A stretch of 64,000 nucleotides of DNA, from the NCBI RefSeq assembly GCF_032854445.1, contig NC_088301.1, positions 48,905,187 through 48,969,186 of the forward strand, written 5' to 3'. Under the pieces are notes generated by a model. It worked only from the letters and a program-made list of their open reading frames with translations. It made no database searches and was not told the DNA's origin. Source of the DNA: Liolophura sinensis. Its lineage: Eukaryota; Mollusca; Polyplacophora; Chitonida; Chitonidae. This document shows positions 19,500-43,600 of this stretch, one piece after another. The translations under genes were made by a program, and so were the position numbers. Each line of letters opens with the position of its first letter. Positions within the stretch are counted from its first letter, which is position 1.

Positions 19500-20055
19500 C
19501 ACATGTGCCAGTCTACCTATATATTGCAGTGGAGCGTACGTGTACATGTACATTAGACTTGAGTGAGGTTATCAGCTCATGTAGACAGCTTGCTGCAGTC
19601 TGCCTTCAAGTCCCTCAGCTGTGAGATGGAGGTAGGCCTAACACACTGTATAAGAGATGTAGATAGAGCCTGAGTACCTACAAGTTGAGAAGTTCTCTTG
19701 CCAGCTACAGCGTGTGCTATCTGTCTTGGTTTGTCCTATGGGGTGCCCATGATTACCTCTCCAGATCTCAGATTTCTCTGAGCCCCCTAGTTTTTCTGGG
19801 CTATTTTGGGGAGCTTCTCCTGATCTGAAGACCTGGAAGTCTGCTCTACCAGCGACTATTAGGCAGCCAAGATGCGCTGGGGGATACACCGCCAGCACAT
19901 GTGGGATGCAGTAACACACTCATCCCTATAGGTAACAGGTCAGAACCAACCCAGCTACAGCAAAACTTTTCCTCCACTTTGTTTATCAAGGGCACTCTAT
20001 GTGGCCCGTTCAATGAGTCTATTGGATGTTTACTGGCTGTGCTGGCTGACTTATT
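19500..20055 (+). promoter_or_regulatory. RASSF 5' flank and probable 5'UTR
   Basis: The base composition becomes less AT-rich immediately upstream of the long coding exon. An in-frame stop TGA at 20047-20049 lies just before the ATG at 20056, so the reading frame cannot extend further upstream without splicing. A possible donor (atggag|gtaggc) lies near 19628. No TATA box or initiator could be assigned with confidence. Confidence 0.4.
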
Positions 20056-22645
20056 ATGGAAGATAGCGGTTACTATAGTCACAAATCCGGGGAATTTAAG
20101 CTATTCTCTTCTGCTAGCAGCAGTAGCAGCTACCGACGCAGGCTCTTCTCACAGGAGCTCCTCAAGTTAGACTATGAACAGTTGAAGAAGTCGGATAAAT
20201 TTAAGCATTTGGTGAGTGGATTTCGTGATGAGAATGACTTTGAGGAGTTTAAACAAGACCTGAGAGACTTCTGGAAGCTGAAAGAAGATACCTGTGAGGA
20301 GTTTGGAAACCAGAACTGCAGCTCCCCTGAACATATGTTAATGGAGTTCTTCAATAGTGATGAAAACTTCAAGGAGTTTGAAAGGGTGTTTGATGATTTC
20401 AAACACCATCGGTTCTATGACTTTGACGAGTTAAAAAAGCGTCGTAGCCGTGGTGACCCGCGTCTGTCTGAAGATGGCGGAGTTCGTCGCGGAGCAGACA
20501 GAGATGAAACTTTCTCTGACTTTTTTGACAATGATGAGGACTTCCAAGAGTTTGAGGAAGAATTTGCTAATTTTAAGGTCATGCAGAGACGCTCAAGAGC
20601 TCTGGATGATTTTAACAGGCGCTCATGGTGTGATTTGCGTAGTGATATTAATGCCAGCTGTGATAGGAAGGCAAAAACAGATAATGCCAATGCAAAACAG
20701 AGCTTTCCAAAAGATGAAGCACTGAATAACCGTTGCCATGGAGATCGTCACCAAAGTTTCTCGACAGCTTCCGAAAAGAATAATGCAAGACAAGAAAGGC
20801 CTGAAGATTTAAGACAATTTAAGCAACAAAGCTCTAGTGATGATAGTCAGTATTACACTTGTCGAGATTTTCCAGAATGCAACTCTGGTAAACTTTCCAG
20901 GGAATCAAACTCTGCGTATCCCGCTGGACCTGGAAGAAGTCAGCCAATTCCAGATCCACCAAGCTATGATTTTGTGATGCAAAACCGAAAATGTAAGCCA
21001 AATGTGAAAAGTCATTCCTGTGATTATGATGATCGAAGTGAACAAGATTTCTCAGAGGGTAAAGAGTGGAATCCAAAATCCCACTCAAGAAGTCAATCCT
21101 ATGACTTTTCACAAAATAGCCAAAACACCACAAATGAAGAGATGTTCAATTCTAATTCTAAAAATCGATCCAGTGATTTTTCAAAGGCAACTGATCATAG
21201 TTACAGCAGTGCGAATCGCAAGTCTAGCACGAGGAGCCATTCTCAGGACATATTTGAGAAGTCAGAGGAGCAGTTTAATAGGCAAAACCAAAAGACTGCT
21301 TCAAACGTTTGTAACAGATCACAGTCATATGATTTTTCCAAAGTGTCAGAAGAAACTTCTGATTCAAAGAAGTTTAGCTCTAAAAGCCAATCATTTGATT
21401 TATCAAATGATTTGAATTATACCAGCAGTGATAAGAAATCAAGTGCCTTTACAAGAAATGAATTGCATGATTTTTCAGAAAATGTGTCTCAGGAAACTCA
21501 TAAGGACAGACAGGATTTCAAGTCCCAGGTTCACTCTTCCAACACATCAAATGATTCAAAATATGAATTCAGTGCTCATGATAAGAAGTCGAACAAAACT
21601 TCTAGAAGTCATTCTTACGACTTCTCAGAATCTTTGTCAAATGAAAGCACTGATAGCAGTCGGAAGTCAAATAGCAATAGGAAAAGTGAAAGTTTGACTG
21701 AAAATTCTAAATTTAAGTACAATGGTTGTGATCAGAAATCAACGGCGAGGACTACATCTAGAAGTCAATCACAGGACTTCTCAGAAAAGTTGTCTGAGAA
21801 AGTTTCAAATGATAGTCGGGCATCAAAATTGAACAGGAGCAGTTTTTCAACGGATTCATCTGAATCATCTAAATACGAATACAAGGGAGTAGATAAAAAG
21901 GCAAACACTACGTCCAGAAGTCAAGCATACAACTATTCAGAGTCTGCCGAGGAGGCACAGACTGACAGAAAGTCGGGTCCCAATGTATATCGCCACTCTT
22001 GCGATGCCAGTGACTGTCATGAAACCACTGCATACAAGGAAAGTAAGACGGAGAAAGGCTGTGCAGTGTCAAAGGAAGCAGGAAAGTCACGGTATTCCGA
22101 CAGCTTTTGTGATTACTCTCATTTGGGGAAAAAATACAGTTCCAGAGATCATGCCAAAGGCTCTGTGGGTGATAATTCGTCAAGTGTCTCAGAGGCAGAT
22201 TTTTATGATTGTTCTGAAGGAGATGGAAGCAGTAATGAGGATATATACAGGGAAATTTATCATGGGAGCACAGATTTTAGTCAGCGTCACAACCAATATA
22301 GCTTTGGCAAGTACAGGCCATCAAAACTGGCTACACATTTACCAACAGTGTATTCCAGACACTCATCAGATTCTGAAATACACATGGGTGGGACATACCC
22401 CAATATAAGATTGGACAGAATCCCTGGGAGTGAGGGATTAAAGCGAAGGTCTGCTGAGTATTTTCAAAACCAAGTCGAAGATGCATTAGAGGATTACTTA
22501 TATAACCCTTATTCCGATGTTGGCCCAAAGGATTATGGACAAAGAAGGTCCAGAAGTGACTACTCTGTATACAACCCTAAAGTGCCTCAGAAAATTGCTT
22601 GTGCCAAATGTCTTTCACAGAATTGCCATAATCCAGTAGTAAACG
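20056..22645 (+). CDS. RASSF1: RASSF exon 1: Ser-rich repetitive N-terminal region
   Basis: An uninterrupted frame of 863 codons plus one base, ending at a perfect donor (AAACG|gtaagt). The ATG has a G at +4 and an in-frame stop three codons upstream. Residues 54-174 hold three copies of an acidic/aromatic unit (DENDFEEF, SDENFKEF, NDEDFQEF, each followed by a D/N-F ending). Residues about 318-650 hold about eleven degenerate copies of an (R/K)S(Q/H)S-x-(D/N)-(F/Y)-S motif, such as RSQSYDFS, spaced 20-50 residues apart. The exon ends with a CAKC pair that may be part of the C1 finger. Composition (Ser, Lys, Asp, Asn) predicts disorder. If the donor is not used, the frame runs 14 more codons and stops at 22689. 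No homologue of this region is recognised. Confidence 0.85.
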
Positions 22646-25600
22646 GTAAGTCTGTGTTAAAAAAATATAGAAATACATCTTACAGGTAGTGGTCAAGATA
22701 TGTGGATTGTATTCAGGTTGTAGGGAAAACATTTTTACATATAACTATCAGACCAGACAAGATGGTTGCTGTTCAGAAAGGTATTAGCTCAATACCTGCA
22801 AAGGCATTATTTCATGGTGTTTTATTACTACATAAAAACAGTACAAAACAATGAACTGTTAGCAAAATATTGATAAATAGAAGTGTGCCTGTTTATATTT
22901 TAATTATGGAATATCTGAGCGTGTATTCTGTAATATACAAGTACATACATACGAACTATTGACATTATCCGTACATACAAACTTAAATTTAAATTCAGCT
23001 GTCGTGGTAGTGGGCTTTTTCTCATTAGTGGTTGGGGAGCAAGTGTATGTCTAAAGTGATAATTTTTTAATAGCTCGCTGGAATGAGACAATAGCAGGTG
23101 GCACCTTGACAGTCTGTACATTTTGATAGTGTGTGTATCCAATGAGATTCTATACATGGTATATTTTACATACAGTTGGTCAAACAAAATGTGTTTTTTT
23201 TTTTAGTTTTGAATAGTTTACCTTGCATAGTTTGGCTGTGGTAATGTGTTATTTTAAGTTCATATACTATGCAGCTCTTACTGCTTCTGTGGCAATCATC
23301 ATTCTATTCATTGCACACGTTATCTTCATTTCTCTTCATATCAGACTTGTTATATAATCCAAGTTTTGACAACTTGACACATTTCATTTTAGTTAAATTT
23401 TCAATTTAGTTTGTGTAAAAATTGATAAGATGTAGATAAAGCTTCAAACCATGTTTGGCCATTGTTTTTTCTGCTTTCTTTGCATTGGCTGTAAGCATGG
23501 TGCAGTTGATATACATTTACGCAAGTCTTTTACTGGGATAGTGATTGAGTTAGTTGAAGAGCACAAGTAAAAGTACATGTAGCACCTGAACAAGTTGTTT
23601 ACTAGGAAAGAGGGTTTCTTGGTTGCAAATAGAACCTGCTTCAGCAAGATCTGAAATTTCTGTACATGCTGAATAAGTCTCCAATTTTGTATTTAATATA
23701 AAGTTTTAATCTATCAGTATCACACAGGTAAGATTTTAAAAATTACAAGACTACATCTTTATTCCAAGGTCAAGTTCATAACTACAATATGTTACCATGT
23801 GACACAGTTGAAAAATTACAATAACATACATCTACACATTCACATACTTCTATAAATACTTTCTGCTTTACACATCTATTTTTATTACTGTCCTGTTAAC
23901 AGGAGACCTACTGTACATTTATGTAATACATACAGGCATTGGTCCACTAATTTGCATGTTAAATTGGCCTTTTCAAGGTTACTGGACAAGGGTTAAAATC
24001 TCATGAACGTTCATGTGTACTCTGCACTTTTAACTGAGAATATATTTCTGTTATACAGCAAGATAATATTTTGATATAAATAGGCTTGAATGTGCAGACG
24101 AATTGATTTCGTTTGACTTGGATTTAACCCCTCTGGATGTCAAGCAATCATACACCTCATACTGTTACATGTGGCTTTTCAAATTTGCTATGGGCATTGC
24201 GCATATACCTGTCTCAAAATAGATGAGATTTTGTACACTTGTTATAATTAATTATTTATTTGATTGGTGTTTTACACTCTACTAAAGAATGTTTCACTTA
24301 GGACGATGGTGTTCAGCATTATGGTCACAGGAAACCAGGCAGAATGAGGGAAAACCCACAACCATTGTTGCCAAACATGATGAATCAAATTCAGATTATG
24401 TATAAAGTGCATCAGAGCTTTTTATAAAATAAAGCCTGCATATGTAGATTAATGAATTTTGCTGGGGATGTCTTAAATTTTCAGCTCTATATTTCTTAAC
24501 GCTATTACCGGTAGTTTGGCTGAAGAATTTTTCTAATAGCTTAATATGAGATAAGCCACAGATATTTGAGAGATTAGCGTGGGTGTTCACAGATTACAAG
24601 GATATAGGCGAAAAAAAATTTACATGTATAAATATATATACATGTATGTTTTGCTCAAGGTAAAGTAGGAAGGGTCATACAGGTGGATGGCACCAAGCTA
24701 TGTACTTGACTGTGTAGTTCACATTTTGTGAATCGGTGGGGCGTTAAAAGGAAAGCTATATTTTCACACAGAAAAATAGAACTTGCACTATTTTCCTAGG
24801 CTATGAGGACAACTGTGTTAAATGGTTATATTGAGGTAATAACAAGATGTGGTTTGTACAGGTAAAACACTGATCTCAATCTCACTGGTGTACCTAAAGG
24901 GTTGTATAGGAAAGGTCACTGGGTAATCTTGCATTGTTTAGTAGGGAGGTCTGATTCACTGTGACTGTGCTTGTACATGTACACAGAGGATAGGTAGAAT
25001 CCGGAGTGCTATTATCTGTTTGTCAGACTGAACCGGAGTGGATTGAATTGATAGGTGAGGAAATGAAAGCAAGGGTTGCATGCTAAAAGTAGGGAGGTCA
25101 CCTTGTCTGCGTGCCAAACTCTATGTGTAGTTCTAGTCCCACACGTGATTTCACTATGTGTCATTGTACGCTTTTAAGTTCCTGTATATAATACAAAACT
25201 GCTGAAATCAGCTTGACTTAAGGAAAACTTTCTGAAATGAAACTGAAGTCTCGAAATAGCTTTGATCATTGCTATGTAAAATATAAAGCACATATTCAAT
25301 CATACTAAAGTCTTAATTTAAATTGATTTGAGTGCATTGGGCATTGAAGGAGAGGAAGTTTTGTCTACCTTAGCCATGGAAATGCCTGTGGTTTTTGCTT
25401 AGTAAAAATGGAATTGTAAGTGATGCATCTGTGCTGAAGGTTTGTAGGATAGGCTGTGGGTTGCAAAGAAAAGGTACAGGTGACATTGTGGCTTATATTT
25501 TTTTACGACACATTTTATAGTATAGGAAATGCCACATTTATAAAGAACATATCGGAACAAAATCAGTCCAGAGGCCAGATTGTAAACTTTTTTTACACCT

Positions 25601-28600
25601 GAATGAACCTGTGTAGAACTTTGAAAGTGAAAGTATTAGTATATCAAACTCTACCCATGACAAAAACATGCTTGGTGCTGAATACCATAGATAAAAAATC
25701 AATCAATAGGGTTGTGGCTCAGTTGGTTAGCGCTCTAGTGCAGCAAAATGACCTAGGAGCCTTTCACCAATGCTGTCGAGTTCAAGTCCAGCTCATGCTG
25801 TCTTCCTCTCCGGCCGTACGTGGGATGGTCTGCCAGCAACCTGCGCATGATCGTGGCTCTGCCTGGTTTCCTCCCACCATGATGCTGGTTGCCGTCGTAT
25901 AAGTGAAATATTCTTGAGTACAGCATATAACACCAATCAAATAAAAAAATCAAAAAATCAATACATTTAATTAATGTAAGGTGGCTTTTCCATCTTGCAG
26001 CATTATCTTTAATCAAAATTTTAATGGGTTACATGAAAAGTCAATATGCATGAAAAGCACAGACTGGCGTCAGTCACTGCACAAATTCTGAACAAATAAC
26101 ACTCGACAGTAAGCTCCTAAATTTACATATATACACTGGAACACTATTTTTAATTCTCTTTTTTTTTTTGCGTGTGCATGAGATCTGTGGGGTTTTTTTT
26201 TTTTTGTAAAAGGTAGATTCTAAGGAGCCATTCTCATTTTTACTATGCATTCAGTAAAAACCATAACTCTGTCAACAAAGAGTCTGCAGAGTTCAAAATT
26301 ATGTTTTTCCATTGCTTGCCTTAGGGCAACCCTTAAAAAATCTAATATGCCCTACGGCAACCATGATAGCTAAAACCTGAAGAAATGTAACATGCCTGGG
26401 GCATGTGACGTCTGTCATTATTGTTATGAAAATCAGTCATAATAAGCACTATCAAAAAGACTTTGAACACTGTGTTTCACCTGAAGTTTACCTTTTTTCA
26501 AGTAACATATTTGGCTTCGTTTTGATTGATTCATCCATCTTTTTGGGCCACATTTTTTGTGAAGTTGAATTTGTTATCAGCAGAACTTATGTATTTGCAA
26601 CAAATCATCATTTTAAGGACTAGTTCTGAAAGTGCATTTTTATAGTCAACATTTAAGTGGAAACAGTGATTAGGACATCTGTGCAGTTCAGTACATTTCT
26701 GTTCAAGAGTTCACTTTCTTATTTAACGCAGCCACTTGAAGCTTCATTGCATGTTCATCTGTGCAAGCATGTAAGGTTGTGTAAGATATAACTTTTGTGT
26801 AAGATATAGGAACTTGTGGTATCTATCTTTTTTTGTCTTCTTTCATCTTCCGATCCATGAACATTTAATAGTCCAGCTACCTTTAGAGAAAACTTTCACC
26901 AGGAAATGACTAAATATTGCCAAAGTTAGATTAAGCCATAATCATTCATTCATTCAAAGAAAACTTTATAAAACCATTTGTTCACTTATAGTTCTTATAG
27001 ATAAAGTAAGTCTTAATTGTAGGAATATATTATTATAATTATCAGAGTCAGAAGCATTATAAATTTGTTGTTTGTGCCTTGTGCCACATACAAGTATATT
27101 GTTTATAATTTAATATCATTTTGATGTGTATTTTTTTTCTCACATCTATTAATAGCATTCACAGACAACAACTAGCTGTAGAATTACAACTGTATGGTTG
27201 GGGAACAGAAATTTACAACTGCCGGTATGTGTGTACAAGTATTTGTACATTGAAAGGGCATGCATTACTTTTTTTCTCATGCTGCAAATTTCCTCTTGTT
27301 TTCAAACTGAAATGCAAGTTTGTAGATCAAATGCATAAAGTGAATGATGTAGGTGTACAGCAGATACATTTAGCCAGCAATCCTTCTAAGAGAGGTAAAA
27401 GATCCAAGGTATAGATGTAAATACAATTTATACCAAGTATTACCGCAAAATTTTTCATGGGATTAAGTGTTTCATGCATGGCTTTTAGGCATTATCTTGT
27501 TGAAACAAAAAAGAAAGTTGTTTTATTTGAAAGGTTTAGGTTGTTAGATGTATAAGCTAGACAAGGTAGACAAACATGATTATTGTTGTGCATTTTTCGA
27601 AAATGAAATACTGCACTGTTGTTGCTCTTGCGCGCGTGCCAGTTCATCCTGCAGTAGTCCACTACAAGCACATATCTATATCTATATATAACGATTAACC
27701 CTTCCTAGTAGTTCTAATTTTGGTGTTTTAATAATGCATTGCACAACCTCAGTCTGATTTCATTATGGCAGTCTTAATGTCTTGTATTTACCTGAACTTA
27801 CGTGACACATTCTTGGTATTTAAAAAAAATCTGAAAGGGTCATGAAATAAAGAGGTTTTTTCTTTTTGTTTTCTGATACTGATTAAGTCTTCATGAGTAA
27901 GTAATTTGATATGTCAAACAGAAAGAACTGTAATTTAATACATGTGCAAGTATTATCAGCACTGACTCCATAATGAATGAAAAGCTAATTATGATTATGT
28001 TTGTACATTCATGTTTATCAAAATAATATTATTATAGGCATGAAATTTAAAATAGAAAAAAGTCAATGAATCACAAGGAGTAAATTTGTGCTGTTTGGTT
28101 ATATGTGCATTTCATGAAAAAACAAGATTGGCAAAATCAAATCTTGTTTTCTGTGGATCCTCTGTTAAAAACCTTTTCTCTCTTATTATTGAAATGATCT
28201 TTTTAATTGTCCATTTTAACCTGATATTAAAGCATTTTTATGTAAAATAGTCTTCAGGGTCCAGACATCCAGTATAGGTTAGTCAAAATCTACATACATT
28301 TGCATTGTATGTGACCTGTAGCGTATGGTATATAAAGTGCCGTCATTTAGCACCCATACGTGTGAAATATGTTATAGATATTATAATAATACACCTACAA
28401 AGTTTGTTTAACAGTGGAGAAGATTTTTTCTGTATCTCTGGTGTTAGATTTTAAGTACCTTTTGGTTTCAAGTTTTGTGATGTGTGTAGGTGTCTTTTTT
28501 TTATGTGTACATTTTGTGCGGGATTGATATGTAGTTCTCTTTTGGTGATTGCAGATTGTCAGTACACATGCCACCACCGCTGTCGCCCCCTTGTGACATT

Positions 28601-31600
28601 AGACTGTACAGCTGTGTCCGAAGGTAGCAATGGCTCTACACAGGATGTGGACGAGCATTCAGCAGAGACGTCACTCTCAGAGATGTACAACTGTCAAACA
28701 TTTCAGTCTGATTACGATGCCTCTCAGTCACCAGAAAGCTCACAAAATGTGAGTTGAAGCAGTGCAAAGTCCAACCCGCTTTGAATGTTACTGTGAAACA
28801 TGATACACTTTTAAAGATGATCAGTACATGTTTCTTTTAAAAGCATCTCCCCACGCCGACCACCTCCAAAATACTCCATTAAAACATTTGCATGTCTCAA
28901 GTTTTATTCTTTTGAAGAACGAAGTTTAAGTTTACCCTTAGATTTGTTCACCCATTTCATTGATTCGTTGGGTTGTTATATATGTATCTAGACTTCTGTG
29001 TATAAGATATGTCATTTTCCAAATGAGTGATCAAAGTCCATTTTTTTTTGTATATAGACGACATTTACATGTATATGTATAATCGTTACATTTACCTTGG
29101 GAATATTTCAGAAATGTAAATGTTGCTTCTTTTTTCTGACATCAAGGATCAAGTTATATGTGAACTTCACTGTGTAATTTGTTTGAAACTTCTACAGATG
29201 TTTTCATTCTTCGTTAAGACACCGTTGATCAATATTCATAATCAAATGTGTTATTGGTGGTGCATTTTGATTGGCTGTAGGAGGACACAGATTCCGGGTA
29301 CAGGTCAGGTGGCATCCAAAGCCGACACCTTACAGAGACAGATCTCGGCACAGACTCGACCCCGATTCCATCAAACGAGAGGAGCTGAGAAAACTCATTG
29401 ATGCATACTGCGATCAATCACCAAGCTCTTTCTTCTGTTTTGTAAGTCTATGACTGAACATGCACAAAATTGTAATAAAAAAAAAAAACACAAAAAACAT
29501 GGTACATTGTATTCTTCAAACCGAAGCATAAGCTGAAGAATCAGTGTTGAAAAGGGAGCCAAGGATCCGGATGCTTGTATAAATTCAAATGTAGCTACCA
29601 GTTGACAGTCAACTGAATTATATTTATGTTGTTTGCTAGGCGAAAGCATAAAAGAGTGAAACGGTTTCATTAAAATTTAAATTCTCTGAGTGGATTTTGC
29701 TTTGGCAATATCTTGACGCAATGTAAACACTTTTTTACTTCCAGATTGGTGACAGTTTGCATTCCCAGGGTTTTATCAGAGTGACCTTAAATCTATTCGA
29801 CCAATAACAATGTCTCTGGGTGCTCGCCCACCATCAATCTACGAAGTGTTGACCAAAGAGCACATTGTAGAACAGAACACCATGTCCATATCCTTTTACA
29901 TGCCTCGGGATACCATCAAACAGATTCATGTGACCAGGTAACCAAGAAAGATTCCTTGCGCATGTAATAATGATGCCTCATGCACAATTCGAATTTAGTT
30001 TTTTTTTTTAAAACTACTGATATTCCCCCCACTCCCACCCCCATTTTCAAATTTTGCCCCCTAAATACATTTAGAGACACAAATTAATGTACGAAGATAA
30101 TACTTTTGGTGCTTAAACTGACAGGTCTCCTGTAAGACATCATCCTGCCTTCTGTTAAAACAAACCTGAAAAACACCTTTCAGAGATCAATGAAACTATT
30201 AGAATCGAGCAAACTGGTCAACTTTTGGGTCATTTACCATATTTATCATAGCTAAGAATGAGATTTTCTTGTGAAATTGGTGAAGTTGGGTTGGTATTTT
30301 GTGACGATGTCAGCTTTATGTGTCTGAATAGTGATGGCTATAAAATTCATACAAGACTTCAGATACCTCTATTGTCCCTGGAGCAGGGTTACAGAATTCT
30401 GCAACTCTAGTTTTCAAGAATTAGCCAGCTTGTCTTGTGTTTTAGGAATATTGTCTTCTTTTTAAATGCTGTACAATGTTGGTTGATGGTATTAAATTGG
30501 CCATTCAAGTCAGTGTATTTGTGAAATAGAAATATTTTGGGACTACATTTATATTTGTTCCTCAGTGCATGGCCAAATCTTTACTTTTCCACTTGCATTT
30601 TTGTATAAAGATGATCTGTGGACATGAGATTTTTTATGTTTCGAAATTAAACGATTGCCTTCAAATGAGATGGGGTACATGATTCAGGAAGAAATATAGA
30701 ATATCTGTACAGGTATTGCATCAGTTCATTTCATGTGGATATTTACAAGAAAGGAAAAGTTGAACACAACAACAGTACATGTACAAAACAACCTTAAACA
30801 ATAAATAAGGACAAGTAAATATTTACAGAGTTATTGAAATCTAATTTATTATATAGCAAAGACCAATGATTTAGAAATGTGTTTTTTCGTGTGTATAGTT
30901 CAGAAGCATACATTTACTGACTTGTCAAAGTTTTATATCAACACACTGTTTCAAAGGGAATTATGTAAGAAGGAAACAGTTCTGTCCCAAATTGATGTCC
31001 CTTTGAACCTCAATCTTAGATTTCTGTTTGCCTCTGTTAAAGGTGTAGTTAATGCCGAAATGTCAGCATATGTAACTCACGTCCACAGATAAGCTTTATT
31101 ACAAGTATCATAGTTCACATGCTGACACTTATCAATATTGCTCACCAACCAGAAAAAGCATACTGCATGCCAGGCAAGTACAATGAAAGCTAATTTCCAC
31201 TGTAATTAAAAAGTACTCCCTAATGTTTGGCTGGCTGCTTTTTTGATTATTGGTAGAGAAATTGTTTTTCATTGTCAACTGTTGGTGATTAAGATGCATT
31301 TCATGATCATTTGTCTCCAAATCATTGTCTTTTTTTTCGTAAACATCTAAAGCATTTATCATCATTGTGTTTTCAGTGAGAACACAACAAAGGAAGTGGT
31401 CACTGCTTTATTGAAGAAGTACAAGATACTGGATAACCCAAGGAAGTTTGCTATGTATGCTCAAGAACTGGAGAACGGGAAGATAGGTGAGAAGTCCGAC
31501 CCCAGTGGGGTGGTTTGGTTCAGATTTATTAAGGCATCCTACACTTATAGAAATTAATTATTTGATGAAATAACTAAGGGCTGAATTATTTTTGTTCTGG

Positions 31601-34600
31601 CTGATAATTAACCAGTAATTCAGTAAGTTTTATTGTTACTGTAATGTTGACTGAGGAAAGACAATCTTCATCAAGTCACTGAAGATACTACATATATCAA
31701 GATGCTTTTATATGATTTCTTTTTCTGCTTTGATCTGAGCGATGTGCAAGTGTCTGGCTACTAGAACTAGGTAAACTGACAGTGTTTTCCATTCAGATAC
31801 TTACCTTTTCAAATTCGCAAATTCACTGTAATGCACTGCACACCAATGCACTGTAAGATGAAAGTATTCATTTGCATGATGGACCAACTTAGAATGCTTC
31901 AGTTATGTTGATATCTCTTCTGTGGAAGCATACCAGCAACTACTGCTTTTTCTGCCATTTAAGACATAGAAAGACATTTTTGTCTCTACTGGTACAAAAT
32001 GTGCCAGGACTTGTGTATCAGATTTTCCATCTTATAGCCCTTAAACGAGCAAGAAAGACAGTAACTATTTACATATGAGGTTCTTGACTTCATAAAATGT
32101 AGACGAGAAAGCCGGGGAACATATAGCACTGGTCTGTTGTAGATGATGTATCTGATGTATAGATGTATCTGAACAATAAAGTTTCTTGTCTCGGTTTCCA
32201 GTAAAGCTATGGCGTGTGGGTGACAAAGACTTTCCTCTCCAAGTGTGCCTCAACTGGGGATCAGAGGACCTTAAGAAACATCGCCTGGTTCTGCAGGAGA
32301 ATGAGACAGGTGAAATAGAGGTAAGTAACAGGGATGACAGTCCGTAAAAAGTTGGCGTCATCATAGCCCCTCTTTAGTTGAATGACCCATGTTATAGGAT
32401 AGGATAGGATATCAAAAATGTGCAAATCAACTGTTTATCTCATTCATGGAGATGCTTGTCTGTGCCAGTAATATCAAATTTATTTTACATCAATACACAT
32501 GCAGCCAGCTGTCTTTTGGGGTTGTTGTTTATCATTTAATTGTTTATTGATATATAGTAAAAGCTTTGAAGCCAGCATGAAATAAAAGTGTATAAGTTAA
32601 ATATGCAAATACAGTACAGCCGGATCCTAACCATCAGTCCTACACCCATTGTGGTTGGATGGTCTGTGTACCCACAATACGCCCACTGTGGCCAGACCCT
32701 GATCAGACAAGCCGTCATTCTCTGCTTACAATCTGTGTATGGTCAGCGTATCATTTTACGACATTAATGCGCTTGCGACTTTGATGTAACGACATCCGAT
32801 AGCCTGTTCACACAGGCAGAGTCAAGCTGGTTTAAAGTGGCTTTGAGCCAGTTTGACGTCGCCCGTGTGAATGCAAAGTAGGGGCACTTAATCCGGGTTG
32901 TTTGTCCCATCTAGCAATGTGGCTTTAAGCCGGTTTCAGAGCTTGAGCTGGTTTATCTGTGCTGTGTGAACGGTAACTGGATTAAATGGCCCGGGTATGT
33001 GGAAGTGGGGATCACTCCATAATTACTAAATTGGCTGAAGTGTGACTAGGCAAATTTCTGAACTGGCTTAAAACTGGCCTGGCCATATGGTCGTGTGAAT
33101 GCAAGCATTTTTACAACTGGCTTCGATTTAAGCCAGCTCTGATTTGATGAGGTTTAAATTTTGGCTGTGTGAAAGGGGTGAGACACACACTGTAGACATT
33201 GTATTATTCGCGCAATCAAGTTTCGTACCAGTACTATTTAAATTGTTAAAATGATTCTTAAGTTAATTGATCAGCTGTATAAATTTTGTGACTTTATTGC
33301 TGAATTTACACATAACATTGACAAGGATGATATTTTGTGAAAGTTAATTATTTGGGCTATTCTAATGTAACGGCAAAAACTGGATTGAAATTGTGCTAAT
33401 GGATTTTTTTTACCGGTACCAAAAATCTCAGGTTTTGATTTTTACTTTCTTTGGTGTATTTTTATGATTTATACATTGGTGGGTAGAGAAATATTTTCAA
33501 AGTATGTACTACATTTTATAGCCCGGGAGATTCAGGATACATATATACATAGGCCTACATCGCATTTGTTCACGCTTAAGTGTATATGAAGGCTACATAT
33601 GATTGCGCTTGTTGTGTGCAGACTTATACTTTTGTGCTTATAAAAATTAATAAACAATAGGATTGACCATTGTGAAATTGGGTGTACAATTAAGGGACAT
33701 GAGATTAATGGGAAAACCATTAACCTGCATACCTTTATACGTGTCCGTGGTTTGAATTTTATAAATTGTAGCCCTTGTGTGATTTACTGATATACGACTC
33801 ATCATGTATACATTTTCAATATAGGTTTATGAAAACACCTTTTGTTGTATATAAGCGTGCGGGCTACTACACATCACACACACCGGTGTCGCATATTCCT
33901 GCGTAATTTTGTATCCAAAGTGAAACTGTGGTAAATTTACTAACTGATAAGCTGGAGTCCGTTTCCAAGTTCTGAAACATCATCATGTACAGCACAGATT
34001 TCAAAGAAAGCCATGTGTTGCATATACGTATATTTGTCAGTAAAGAAATGCCTTTAAGTAGGTTTGTTTTTTAATAATTAATGAACTAATGTTATATACA
34101 AAATATCGTATACTTGAGAAGCCGGGTACAAACTTGAATCCTCTGTTTTCAAGAGGACAGTTTCCTAAACAGTAAGCTATTAAAATTCAAATTTATGTGC
34201 AAGTAAATATGCTGTGAGACATCACAGTGTTCATGAGAGGCATGACGGTTTAAAGGAAATCGGTTTGTATTTAGTTTTAAAACATTTGATGATCATGGGC
34301 TCAGTGTTTGCGGATGGTCTGACGTGGGTCCGCGTATGATGTCAGGAGGATGCCGTCACAGGACGTGTATGAAGGTGCATGGTCAGCATGTTGTATGCTG
34401 ACCATGAGCCGACCGTCTTCATATCCTCCGGCCAGAACGGGCTTAGGCTTGATGGTTGGGACCCGGCTGTATTTTACTTGTATTGTGAATATTATGGACT
34501 ATGTGCATCGATATGAACATTTGATTAGGTGACCTTATAGGTTTGTTTTCTGTTTCAGTGGAATGCATTCAGCCAGCCAGAGTTGCAGAACTTCATGCGT

Positions 34601-34729
34601 ATTTTGGACAAGGAAGAAGGCGAGTGTGTTGCCCAGTTACAGTATAAGTACAAGGTTATGAAGAGAATTATTCAGCAAAGGATGAAAGAAATTCGAAAAG
34701 AGCGCAAGGAGCAAAGTCAGCGTTCTTAG
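20056..34729 (+). CDS. RASSF1: RASSF1/3/5-type Ras-association domain protein
   Basis: A seven-exon gene: 20056-22645, 28555-28748, 29281-29441, 29745-29937, 31377-31486, 32202-32320, 34559-34729. The predicted protein is about 1179 residues: Ser-rich repetitive N-terminus (1-863), C-terminal half of a C1 zinc finger (CQYTCHHRC then LVTLDC), a linker, the RA domain (GFIRVTLNL, SFYMPRDTIKQIHV, DNPRKFAMYAQE, VLQENETGEIEWNAF), and a SARAH helix (ELQNFMRILDKEE to the end). Family members bind Ras-like GTPases through RA and MST/Hippo kinases through SARAH; that role is inferred. Human RASSF1A is 340 residues, so the N-terminus is an unusual addition. Exon phases agree throughout, provided one missing base is assumed in each of exons 3 and 4. 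Whether it is orthologous to RASSF1, 3 or 5 cannot be decided here; an invertebrate may have one copy for all three. Confidence 0.88.
24247..24372 (-). mobile_element. SINE 3' fragment, minus strand
   Basis: It begins on the + strand with aattatttatttgattggtg, the complement of the CAATCAAATAAA tail, and continues through the conserved 3' body (ttcagcattatggtcacagg). It matches the 3' half of the full copy at 25704-25951 but lacks the tRNA-like head, as expected for a 5'-truncated insertion. Confidence 0.75.
25693..25962 (+). mobile_element. Full-length tRNA-derived SINE with target duplication
   Basis: It has a tRNA-like head with A box (tggctcagttgg) and B box (gagttcaagtcc), a body with ggccgtacgtgggatggtct, and a tail CAATCAAATAAA. 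The element (25704-25951) is flanked by perfect 11-bp direct repeats aaaaaatcaat at 25693-25703 and 25952-25962, the mark of LINE-mediated insertion. Intact boxes and perfect repeats suggest a relatively recent insertion into RASSF intron 1. Confidence 0.9.
28555..28748 (+). CDS. RASSF1: RASSF exon 2: C1 second half and linker
   Basis: Acceptor gattgcag, donor AAT|gtgagt. Joined in phase 1 to exon 1 it reads D-CQYTCHHRCRPLVTLDC, the last part of a C1 zinc finger with C-x3-C-H-x2-C and a final Cys eight residues on. The intron falls just before the DC, where the mammalian RASSF1 exon 2 also begins. The remainder is an acidic Ser/Thr-rich linker ending SPESSQN. Confidence 0.9.
29281..29441 (+). 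CDS. RASSF1: RASSF exon 3: linker before RA, single-base frameshift
   Basis: Acceptor ggctgtag, donor TTTT|gtaagt. The entry frame reads EDTDSGYRSGG and on to LGTDS, then hits a stop; the exit frame reads DPDSIKREELRKLIDAY and on to SSFFCF, the helix that precedes the RA domain in this family. The exon is 161 bp, whereas both flanking introns are phase 0 and require a multiple of three. One base is therefore missing, most simply near TCGACC at 29356-29361. Confidence 0.8.
29745..29937 (+). CDS. RASSF1: RASSF exon 4: start of RA domain, single-base frameshift
   Basis: Acceptor acttccag, donor ACCAG|gtaacc. It reads IGDSLHSQGFIRVTLNL in the entry frame, then RPITMSLGARPPSIY in the frame one base back, continuing to SFYMPRDTIKQIHVT. 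Both halves match the N-terminal RA domain of RASSF proteins (GFIKV and LVRP in human RASSF1). The exon is 193 bp; 194 are needed for phase 2 at its end. The missing base lies at TTCGACC, about 29796-29802. Confidence 0.85.
31377..31486 (+). CDS. RASSF1: RASSF exon 5: RA domain core
   Basis: Acceptor gtgttttcag, donor ATAG|gtgaga. It is 110 bp and phases fit on both sides. It encodes ENTTKEVVTALLKKYKILD and then NPRKFAMYAQELENGKI, matching the RA-domain stretch of human RASSF1 that contains the DPRKFALFE motif. Confidence 0.95.
32202..32320 (+). CDS. RASSF1: RASSF exon 6: RA domain end
   Basis: Acceptor ggtttccag, donor GAG|gtaagt. It is 119 bp, phase 1 in and phase 0 out. It encodes KLWRVGDKDFPLQVCLNWG and then HRLVLQENETGEIE, matching the final RA strands (VLKENDSGEV in human RASSF1). 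Confidence 0.95.
32803..33180. mobile_element. MITE with TTCACACAG terminal inverted repeats
   Basis: The left end reads cctgttcacacaggc and the right end ggctgtgtgaaagggg, which are imperfect inverted repeats. Between them are many internal GGCTTTAAGCCGG/GGCTTAAAACTGG-like words, so the element is largely self-complementary. There is no coding capacity. The superfamily is not assigned, and no clear target duplication was found. Confidence 0.6.
34378..34406. other. Perfect 12-bp stem, 5-nt loop hairpin
   Basis: catggtcagcat, loop gttgt, atgctgaccatg. It lies in RASSF intron 6, within the inverted-repeat material, and is probably part of a transposon end. Confidence 0.7.
34559..34729 (+). CDS. 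RASSF1: RASSF exon 7: SARAH domain and stop
   Basis: Acceptor tctgtttcag, 56 codons plus TAG. It encodes WNAFSQPELQNFMRILDKEE, then a heptad-like basic helix ending in KERKEQSQRS. This is the C-terminal SARAH coiled coil by which RASSF1-6 proteins pair with MST1/2-type kinases. Human RASSF1 has WDAFSMPELHNFLRIL at the same place. Confidence 0.95.
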   Translation, partial: WNAFSQPELQNFMRILDKEEGECVAQLQYKYKVMKRIIQQRMKEIRKERKEQSQRS

Positions 34730-40546: not shown

Positions 40547-40624
40547 TCACTTTCCCGTGAAAACTTCACATAACACAGCTGGGAAGTCAACATGGAGTCT
40601 TGGATGAGGCAATTCCACATCTCC
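40547..40624 (-). CDS. TUSC2: TUSC2 exon 3
   Basis: Acceptor gtgtttacag on the - strand, phase 0, 25 codons plus TGA. It encodes GDVELPHPRLHVDFPAVLCE, then VFTGK. The HPR-HVDFP core is the most conserved part of the TUSC2 C-terminus. The protein ends four residues later than the human one. Confidence 0.95.
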   Translation of the reverse strand, partial: GDVELPHPRLHVDFPAVLCEVFTGK

Positions 40625-43600
40625 CTGTAAACACAAATTTAGATAACCAAATATTTCAAGCATAAAATTGGGCATTTTTACAATTTACAATGGTAAACTG
40701 GTTTCTTCACTTCAGAACCAAGTTTGTTTCCAACAATGTTTGGTCATATCACGACAACTATACGTCTTTATAACAGGCCCATATCAGTACAAAGATGTTG
40801 AAAATCATGTTCCACTCAGTCAAGGAGTGCAGACTCTGTGCAGACAAGTTGCTAACCCAATGCCAATATTGTTACCTGAATGCTAACTAACATTTTACAG
40901 TCAGACTTGAACTGAGTTGAGACTAAATATGGGTCCAAGCTTACAAAACAGACACTACCAGCAATGTTAAGGGCTAATTAAAGTTAAAGACAGCACCTAA
41001 CTAATGTTTATGTCCACTGAAAGACTACCTTTCAAAGGATCTCAAACAGGCATTAAATATTTTTTTACATTTTTTTTCAACCCGGTAACAGTTTAGTGAA
41101 ACTTCATCTTGACACAGCTTCAGCATGTCATCAAGAGCAAGGTGGCGTCACATTTACTCTAGCTCTCTAACGTCGAAGGTATTTTCTGCATAATAGTTTA
41201 AGCAGTAGCCTATGGCAGACAGAAATTGTGGACTTCGGCAATGAACGCCCAAGTGTTCAATATAGTTTTCTATTAAACCGGGCACACTGGAAAAATATTT
41301 CTTCCACTCCTTGAACTGTTGACACAGTAATCCTACTAAATCTTTTTCAGGGAACTCCAGAACTCCCTGTTTAAATAGTCTAGCTGCAAATGAACAACTG
41401 GGGGTATTCCTGGTTCAGGTCGTAGCTTCTGGAGGGGTTGTGCTGGCAATACTCACCCCTACTAAATTTTTACAAAATTACAATAGGATTGTTATACAAC
41501 TACATTTATGCTCAATTCTGAAACAAATGGAAATAAATCTAAGCACCACAAAGGCTGATCTAGGCATTCAATTGTTGCTGGATTTTACGTTTCAATTTTG
41601 TAGTGGTGGCTTCTAAAATGAAAGCACTGCTGACCTAGTTATCACTTATGTCAGAGAAAGCACCTTGGCTTGAATACTGCGTTTCAGTAATTTTACTGTA
41701 TTTCATGAAAGAAAACCGAAAAAAAAAACATCACTTCTATGAGAGAAAGACAAAAGAGCAAATTTAAATTCTTTAGCTCTAGTAAATTCAGAGAAAAAAA
41801 AATTAGATCAAAAGATTCAATTAATTTTAAGAATTGTTCGCTGAGATGCCGTCTTCTCATTCCCATACACTTTCAGCATCCCTATATGAATTTTGCAGTG
41901 ACCCTGATATTTGTTATTTACAAACTGCAGACTAAACGCTAAAATGATTGACAAAAAAAATGTATTTATATAATTTGAACTAAGTGGGCCTGTGTCTAAG
42001 TGGGCCTATGCTCTGCTGGGGAGATGAATGCAGTTTGGGTGGAGACAGCATGCATAATTTGACAAAATTTGTCTGATATAATTTGTAAAACCGTTGTTGA
42101 GTATTACACGGTTTGTAAATGAACTGATTTTCTCAATTCTCAACACGGCTGCCTTGACTCACACCAGCCCTTTGTCAGCAGCAGTATTGTCATTTCGTTG
42201 TACATGTTATTCTGTGAAATCTCATTAAAATAATAAAGTAGGATACTTTTCAGAAAGCTTCAGCATCCTGCTTTCGACTGAAACATGTTTTAGCCAGGTA
42301 CTGTCTTGTCCTTTAAATTACCCTCAATGCCTCAAAAGCAGCGCCCCCCCCCCCCCCCCCCCCAACTAAGGGAGACCACTCTGCTGCAATGCAGTTACTA
42401 AACCTGTGAATCATGATTACACACTGTAACTGATCGTTACTATTAGTACCGTTGTCATCTATAACCGAAACCATAGTTCATGATATGGAGGAATTCAGGC
42501 ATACACAAGCTTAGATGCACCAACACGTATGTAGCACCTTCACTAGATCTTTGGCATAATCAGATGAGAATATGCTTCATGGGATGGATAAAAACAGAAC
42601 AAAGTTACATTTATGCACTAATCTCCCCTGATGAGCACACAGAAAAGCATAATTTTTACAAGGCTCCAAAGTGTAAGCTGACATTTTGTCTGTATTTTGT
42701 GCTTGGTTTATCTTGCTCGGTGCAAGGTGAATTTTGTGCTTGTTTCAAATACAGGTGGCCTGTGGGATCTAGGACCTGACAGTACTTGGGACATGGACAC
42801 AGATTCAAAACAAAATAAAAATGTTTTAAAAAATTTGAAATGTCTGTTAAACAACTAAAATGAAAAACATGAAATTTAAAGACTCCTGGTCTGACGAGCT
42901 TCAATTCTTTCAAATAAGAACATGGCTACAAATTCATGGATTTAAACTGAGGTAATAAAATCATGCAGAATAAGACTATACACAAGCAACTACGTGTATG
43001 TTCAGCACCAGGGGTAGACAGTAGATTTTTTTCTTTTGTGGATGAAAAGGCAACTAGAATCCGGATGTCTGAAATATCCCGCCTTCCACACACCAACATT
43101 TACAAAAATTAAGAAAAAATTAATAAGAACTAAACCTTAAAATAAAGGACAGAACATCATGTTGCTTAGTTTGACTTCCCTATAGATTGTTTCATGGGCC
43201 ATTTATAGTGTGCACTTATTGTACTACTTGTGCATCCAGTTTAAAGAAATGCAGCAATCAGAAGAGAATACATGTACTATCTACACAAAATTCCATTACT
43301 GCACTAAGTACCTGAACGGGAGAAATTATGAAAATAATTACCCAATTGTAATTTAATTTGAGCATGCACAAGTTCATATTACAGAGAAGATTTGTCTTAT
43401 GTTTCACGGAAAGGGTTGAATACTTTAGGAAGAGTTACATGGAAAAAATCTTAATACATGGAAAAGCACTATTACTAAAAGCACCAAGTCATAAATGGGG
43501 GTAATTATGAAAATAATTATCTGATTGCCATTAAAGTTTAGCATGCATATGTTCAGATGACAGGCAAGATGTCTGCTAAATTTCATCAAAATCGGCGCAG

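Follow-up and report, generated by a model that had tools for sequence, protein, structure and literature searches.

The locus described here raises the question of whether a long, uninterrupted exon on a chromosome of the chiton Liolophura sinensis lengthens a RASSF protein at its N-terminus, as the original prediction had proposed, or stands in some other relation to the RASSF gene around it. The window, i.e., the whole stretch of DNA that was analyzed, comprises 64 kb (64,000 nucleotides) of chromosome C7; positions without a prefix refer to it, and negative ones lie upstream of its first letter. Two candidate first exons are considered, the long exon (L) inside the window and a second one (U) upstream of it. 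Judged from its sequence, L is most likely a real and unusual alternative first exon, replacing the C1 domain in an invertebrate RASSF1-type gene, the two-promoter design itself being known.

The RASSF Gene and Its Neighborhood

The exons common to both starts and the neighboring TUSC2 gene are located as follows:

28555 to 28748, + strand: exon 2, second half of C1, with a phase-1 acceptor common to L and U
29281 to 29441, + strand: exon 3, linker, with a change of frame between its halves near 29366-29372 (slip or splice variant)
29745 to 29937, + strand: exon 4, start of RA, with an apparent one-base frame slip near 29793-29799
31377 to 31486, + strand: exon 5, RA
32202 to 32320, + strand: exon 6, linker between RA and SARAH
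34559 to 34729, + strand: exon 7, SARAH domain and stop codon
43871 to 44005 and 40565 to 40639, - strand: TUSC2 (FUS1) exons, beside RASSF

The RASSF identity that had been proposed for this gene holds. The SARAH domain of exon 7 scores 57.1 bits against PF16517 (C7:48939751-48939870, window 34565-34684) and is, of the 2 matches listed in a genome search with this profile, the only one over the cut-off. The best PDB matches of the gene are RASSF5 chains, namely the RA chain 3ddc_B over 106 residues from exon 4 into exon 6 (E 2.9e-18) and the SARAH chain 4lgd_E over the SARAH part (E 4.5e-10). Possessing a C-terminal SARAH domain and an RA domain ahead of it, as the C-RASSFs (RASSF1-6) do, the gene is assigned by these matches as the RASSF1/3/5-type C-RASSF of this genome. 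This gene, whose RA domain is split by introns, is not among the matches listed in a genome search with the Pfam RA profile.

Exons 3 and 4 show changes of frame. In exon 4, the switch falls between GFIRVTLNL and RPITM, and the two readings were scored over unequal lengths (23 residues with 8 identities and a score of 30 versus 12 residues with 6 identities and a score of 32). For the piece of exons 3-4 that lies in the other frame, a PDB search gave no RASSF chain among its matches (best 0.7). Inspection by eye suggests that splicing alone could account for the reading of exon 4 if an acceptor near 29756 were used, and there are such alternatives for exon 3 too. Our first guess is an assembly error, with a true lesion or alternative splicing also possible. 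In the mitochondrial contig C99, a concatemer, COX1 is present seven times at intervals of about 15.5 kb, and one of these copies is shorter and lower-scoring, which suggests that indel errors do occur in this assembly. Under the invertebrate mitochondrial code, a mitochondrial COX1 reads through. Given the frame slips, an intact protein of the U or the L isoform is not proven from this assembly.

As in human 3p21.3, where TUSC2 adjoins RASSF1, TUSC2 is found nearby. There are 19 stray ORFs of at least 85 aa after exon 7; 10 of these were searched against Pfam, and only the TUSC2 one was over the cut-off. Four further families of the 3p21.3 type were searched for, two of which are encoded on the same chromosome 3-4 Mb off, i.e., DUF1751/TMEM115 at 52.10 Mb and NPR2 at 52.71 Mb on C7. 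Matches to hyaluronidase are all on C6 (15 of 15), with none on the RASSF chromosome, and a search for the VGCC alpha2 family gave no match, which does not show its absence. TUSC2 together with the neighbors of the 3p21.3 type supports the view that this gene is the RASSF1-lineage locus; a literature search for synteny of TUSC2 and RASSF1 gave no paper in the collection covered. A second NPR2-family match on another chromosome (C1:72471099-72472202) consists of one open frame of 404 aa, versus the multi-exon copy on C7, and is possibly a retrocopy.

Boundaries and Uniqueness of the Long Exon

The long exon is placed as follows:

20056 to 22645, + strand: L, candidate alternative first coding exon, long (863 codons and 1 nt), GTAAGT donor, phase 1

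It had been described as one uninterrupted exon of 2590 nt that joins exon 2 in the correct phase, and both points stand. The reading frame is unbroken from the ATG at 20056 to a stop codon ending at 22689 (877 aa), and a GTAAGT donor follows directly after 22645 (at 22646). The 2590 nt end in phase 1, the phase of the exon 2 acceptor (28555), and the reading continues in frame into 28555-28748 as DCQYTCHHRCRPLVTLDC. An in-frame TGA is the third codon 5' of the L ATG, and L is therefore not just an internal exon read in frame.

Since no splicing is needed to read the ORF from its ATG to its stop, L might instead be a nested single-exon gene (877 codons) in the first RASSF intron, with an accidental GTAAGT near its end. 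The ORF runs only 14 codons past the donor to its stop, so this donor could be fortuitous, and the L protein matches no Pfam family and no PDB chain in sequence searches up to E 1; also, U alone suffices to complete the C1 domain of exon 2. However, the + strand of the 64 kb contains 20 GTAAGT sites, which corresponds to about 0.014 in a stretch of 44 nt such as the one from the L donor to the stop, and for a consensus donor there whose phase fits exon 2 the chance is about 0.014 x 1/3. Also, the SGYxS at the N-terminus of L parallels the C1-less RASSF1C. We consider a nested gene unlikely.

In the 609-Mb assembly, the single match of the L protein is L itself. Searches for relatives in genome_contigs and viral_contigs gave 15 and 5 pattern matches, respectively, 0 being confirmed in either set. 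The serine-rich and predicted disordered character attributed to L was confirmed, as serine makes up 17.7% of its residues and the charge-hydropathy boundary places 4 of the 4 tested blocks among disordered sequences. Residues 1-200 give a single-sequence model with a mean pLDDT of 49, but residues 22-91 are modeled as helices in a single-sequence AlphaFold model (mean pLDDT 71), so the arm encoded by L may not be wholly disordered. A fold search with the model of residues 22-91 gave no match at E <= 0.001.

An Upstream Exon Completes the C1 Domain

As seen in DCQYTCHHRCRPLVTLDC, exon 2 starts halfway through a C1 domain, and its partner must therefore supply H-x12-C-x2-C-x13-C. A search of the assembly with the C1 profile listed 73 matches with E values of at most 10, and one of these (C7:48901896-48901997, + strand, 32.6 bits) sits on the following exon, whose ATG is directly preceded by a stop codon:

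C7:48901542-48901992 (window -3644 to -3194), + strand: exon U, 150 codons, phase-1 GTAAGT donor, first half of C1

Counted from the start of the window, U lies 3.2 kb further upstream. The join of U and exon 2 yields a full C1 domain, HDFIPQQLINPTWCDNCGAFIWGVLKQCLRCQYCQYTCHHRCRPLVTLDC, with the spacing HX12CX2CX13CX2CX4HX2CX7C and a Pfam score of 58.2 bits (E 7e-16), versus 31.2 bits for U alone and 19.0 for exon 2 alone. L joined to exon 2 scores 12.9 bits, and only the second half of the domain is aligned. As a control, the L tail was joined to a random intronic stretch and then to exon 2 in eight versions, and each was scored against Pfam C1; five of them reached 9.4 to 18.0 bits and three gave no C1 listing. 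The drop in score after joining thus means little in itself, since random joins score likewise and L behaves about as a random flank. A C1 domain N-terminal to RA, as in RASSF1 and RASSF5, is obtained only via U and exon 2, the product of L containing half a domain. As the first half is provided by U, in the same phase, and not by L, L replaces the C1 domain and does not extend it, contrary to the original prediction of an extension added to a C1-RA-SARAH protein.

That earlier model, i.e., one protein with a long region ahead of an intact C1-RA-SARAH, could draw on the in-phase junction of L and on a longer form of exon 2. Among the ten AGs in 28402-28554, only one other is both in frame and stop-free, the acceptor at 28454-28455, which opens an exon 2 from 28456 that is in frame with L and reads ...CHNPVVNVPFGFKFCDVCRCLFFMCTFCAGLICSSLLVIADCQYTCHHRC...; the end of the intron (28458-28554) then reads as a C1-like string (FCDVC...GLIC...ADC), and the Cys/His string with L becomes H-x12-C-x2-C-x14-C-x8-C-x4-H-x2-C-x7-C. 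This longer exon 2 scores 14.1 bits against Pfam C1 without the L tail and 11.7 bits with it, the latter being within the range of the random controls, which run from unlisted to 18.0 bits. With U, on which the true first half of the domain is found, C1 is completed through the acceptor at 28554. We treat the C1-like string of the longer exon 2 as probably chance or a relic and regard the one-protein model as hardly credible.

A refinement of our preferred reading, C1 replacement by L, would be that the cysteine-rich end of L (CAKCLSQNCH) forms a hybrid zinc finger with the Cys and His residues encoded in the short or the longer exon 2. A CxxC, a further C, and an H occur in the last 30 residues of L, beside the CQYTCHHRC of exon 2, the acceptor opening 28456 brings more spaced cysteines in frame, and dRASSF of Drosophila is described as having a LIM domain that resembles C1 (PMC1828611). 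In contrast, Pfam searches up to E 10 give no LIM domain or other zinc finger, just a half or weak C1, and the cysteines could be coincidental. Such a finger seems quite doubtful to us.

Should L be the only first exon of the RASSF gene, U would belong to another gene or be a relic. U indeed lies outside the window, with about 23 kb separating it from L further downstream. However, U and exon 2 are complementary in both sequence and phase, and no second C1 match is listed between them, although the same search did not list exon 2 either, which indicates that it can miss half domains. Also, there are 18 stray ORFs of at least 85 aa outside L and before exon 2, and none of the 10 searched against Pfam was over the cut-off. 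That L is the sole first exon is, in our opinion, very improbable. It seems probable that L is an alternative first coding exon of this RASSF1/3/5-type gene, situated within the first intron of the C1-bearing isoform.

In the C1 domain that U and exon 2 would form together, the spacing is canonical, and the Pro, Trp, Gly, and Gln residues needed for binding of diacylglycerol or phorbol esters are retained. It differs in this from the C1 domain of vertebrate RASSFs, described as 'atypical' (PMC3337673), and might bind lipids.

Repeats and Short Motifs in the Long Exon

The repeats and motifs of L are the following:

20062 to 20079, + strand: DSGYYS, residues 3-8, resembling the N-terminal SSGYxS of RASSF1C and the DSGxxS degron for beta-TrCP
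20215 to 20277, + strand: FxEF repeat 1, residues 54-74, the weakest copy
20341 to 20406, + strand: FxEF repeat 2, residues 96-117
20515 to 20580, + strand: FxEF repeat 3, residues 154-175
20956 to 20967, + strand: PPSY, residues 301-304 (204 of 5000 shuffles have one)
21430 to 22047, + strand: four degenerate units of 50-54 residues (459-508, 509-558, 559-612, and 613-664), each with an RSxS..DFSE-like core

Motif counts in L were tested against 5000 block-wise shuffles. DFS occurs 8 times (shuffle mean 0.81), YDF 5 times (0.18), and [RK]S[QHS]S[YFQ]D 6 times (0.02), counts that none of the 5000 shuffles reached. The recurrence of RSQSYDFS-like motifs at residues 318-650 is thus beyond chance, but their number, given earlier as about eleven, needs correction, since only 10 of the 11 [RK]SxS sites of L fall within this stretch and the eleventh is at residue 831. 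Copies anchored on DF(S) number nine at residues 330-625, eight of them at 349-625. RSxS alone is found 6 times versus 1.9 in shuffles, 51 of 5000 reaching 6. The pattern of basophilic kinase sites formerly ascribed to L does not extend to plain R-x-x-[ST], which is not enriched (12 versus 12.6 in shuffles, 3154 of 5000 reaching 12); the basophilic signal is therefore limited to the specific motif. Sites of the SP/TP type are depleted (1 versus 5.1 expected in shuffles), which makes proline-directed kinases unlikely. The idea of a site for LATS has no case, as HxRxx[ST] occurs once, at residue 343, and 1551 of 5000 shuffles match it.

Features that had gone unmentioned in the original prediction are the four units of about 52 residues and the FxEFxxx[FL]xxF repeats. 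The best ungapped self-alignment scores 69 for residues 1-200 (maximum of 47 in 60 shuffles) and 146 for residues 301-660 (maximum of 96 in 60 shuffles), while the pairing of FxEF copies 1 and 2, with a score of 38, falls inside the shuffle range (maximum 47). Tandem Repeats Finder detects one array of 19 nt only, and self-BLAST of L gives no off-diagonal pair. Copies for substitution counts were chosen by amino-acid likeness, which lowers pN; pS and pN are 0.82 and 0.30 for the eight core copies and 0.63 and 0.55 for columns 21-55 of the units. These values suggest old repeats with constrained cores but, given the choice of copies, we do not lean on them.

DSGxxS is the form of the degron recognized by beta-TrCP, and L begins with MEDSGYYS, i.e., with an SGYxS near the N-terminus as in isoforms of the RASSF1C/RASSF5C type. 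From composition, SGYxS is expected about 0.0005-0.0016 times in 10 N-terminal positions, whereas DSGxxS anywhere in L is less rare (338 of 5000 shuffles). As a counterpoint, DSGYRS is also present in the common exon 3 in frame 0, and the motif is not specific to L if that frame is right. PPSY is a WW ligand motif of the PPxY type and a possible WW-domain ligand for partners in the Hippo pathway.

Comparison With Known RASSF Systems

Vertebrate RASSF5A and RASSF5C (NORE1A and RAPL) are C1 and C1-less forms with a common RA-SARAH part. A C1 and a C1-less start would be present here too, in a gene whose closest PDB chains are those of RASSF5. The N-termini of RASSF3 and RAPL contain SSGY[CS]S. 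Vertebrate RASSF5 and RASSF3 have short N-termini without repeats, in contrast to the long, repetitive L.

Human RASSF1 is described as having a first exon, 1-alpha, that leads to C1, and an internal CpG-island promoter from which exon 2-gamma leads to the C1-less RASSF1C (PMC8521318, PMC3337673). The chiton gene is alike in that an upstream first exon with C1 and an internal C1-less first exon, located 3' of the C1 exon, would share RA and SARAH, and in that the C1-less N-terminus has SGYxS. The parallel is inexact since RASSF1C, a protein of 270 aa, skips the exon for the second half of C1 (PMC8521318), whereas L has 863 codons, is repetitive, and is phase-matched to exon 2. The N-terminal SSGYxS of RASSF1C binds beta-TrCP, reportedly not via its WD40 repeats (PMC10487276, PMC3371342), and GSK3 phosphorylation of Ser19/Ser23 of RASSF1C and its degradation are reviewed in PMC5954166.

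In Drosophila, the C-terminus of dRASSF (CG4656) is at residue 806, according to the position given for an antibody, with RA and SARAH located there (PMC1828611), so the N-terminal region must be long, as in the L form. dRASSF also has an N-terminal C1-like zinc finger; compared by description, it differs from the C1 of the chiton gene in that a LIM-like finger takes its place (PMC1828611).

Two Proposed Starts and Their Possible Significance

U and L would compete for the same phase-1 acceptor of exon 2. From U and the common exons, a protein of conventional type with a full C1 and about 466 aa would result, and from L one of about 1,180 aa with a disordered, repetitive arm in place of C1, both being estimated lengths that count one extra base in exon 3 and in exon 4. 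RA (Ras/Rap binding) and SARAH (Hippo/MST docking) would be kept in both isoforms, and as these domains are common to the two, both should bind Ras-family GTPases as well as Hippo/MST. In NORE1A, C1 is described to contact RA and to block Ras binding (PMC3337673); by analogy, the RA domain of the L form should be exposed, since this form is without C1. The L arm would add sites for docking, turnover, and phosphorylation, i.e., the N-terminal DSGYYS, at which beta-TrCP may bind, aromatic FxEF helices, and RSxSYDFS cores. Competition of dRASSF with Salvador for Hippo is described in Drosophila (PMC1828611), and a U/L switch would therefore be expected to tune which RASSF form occupies Hippo; promoter choice would set which form of the Ras effector does so.

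As a tentative and rather improbable extension, the choice between a C1-bearing start and a C1-less start with SGYxS, together with the linkage to TUSC2, could be ancestral to bilaterians. In that case, what vertebrates retain as the RASSF1A/1C promoter switch would be a shortened version of an ancient Ras/Hippo isoform switch, whose C1-less form had a large, repetitive docking arm. In human tumors, silencing of the RASSF1A promoter is described as frequent, with RASSF1C still expressed (PMC8521318, PMC3337673). An invertebrate gene with two starts of this kind, a similar SGYxS, and a TUSC2 neighbor would allow this switch to be studied in a one-gene setting, and it would indicate that a very large repetitive scaffold, far beyond the scale of human A and C, can serve as the C1-less arm. 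For annotation, caution is advisable, as L should not be fused to a C1-RA-SARAH model.

A promoter at L is what the two-start model would entail. Observed/expected CpG ratios are 0.68 and 0.71 in the segments starting at 20014 and 20414, with a mean of 0.36. This rise at the start of L is compatible with a start region without settling the matter; equal or higher values occur in segments from -7986 to -5186 and in the segment holding exon 7. At U itself the ratio is 0.28-0.57, i.e., not raised. A CpG-rich stretch from -7986 to -4387, 5' of U, reaches observed/expected values of up to 1.10 versus the mean of 0.36 and is possibly the main promoter region or part of another gene.
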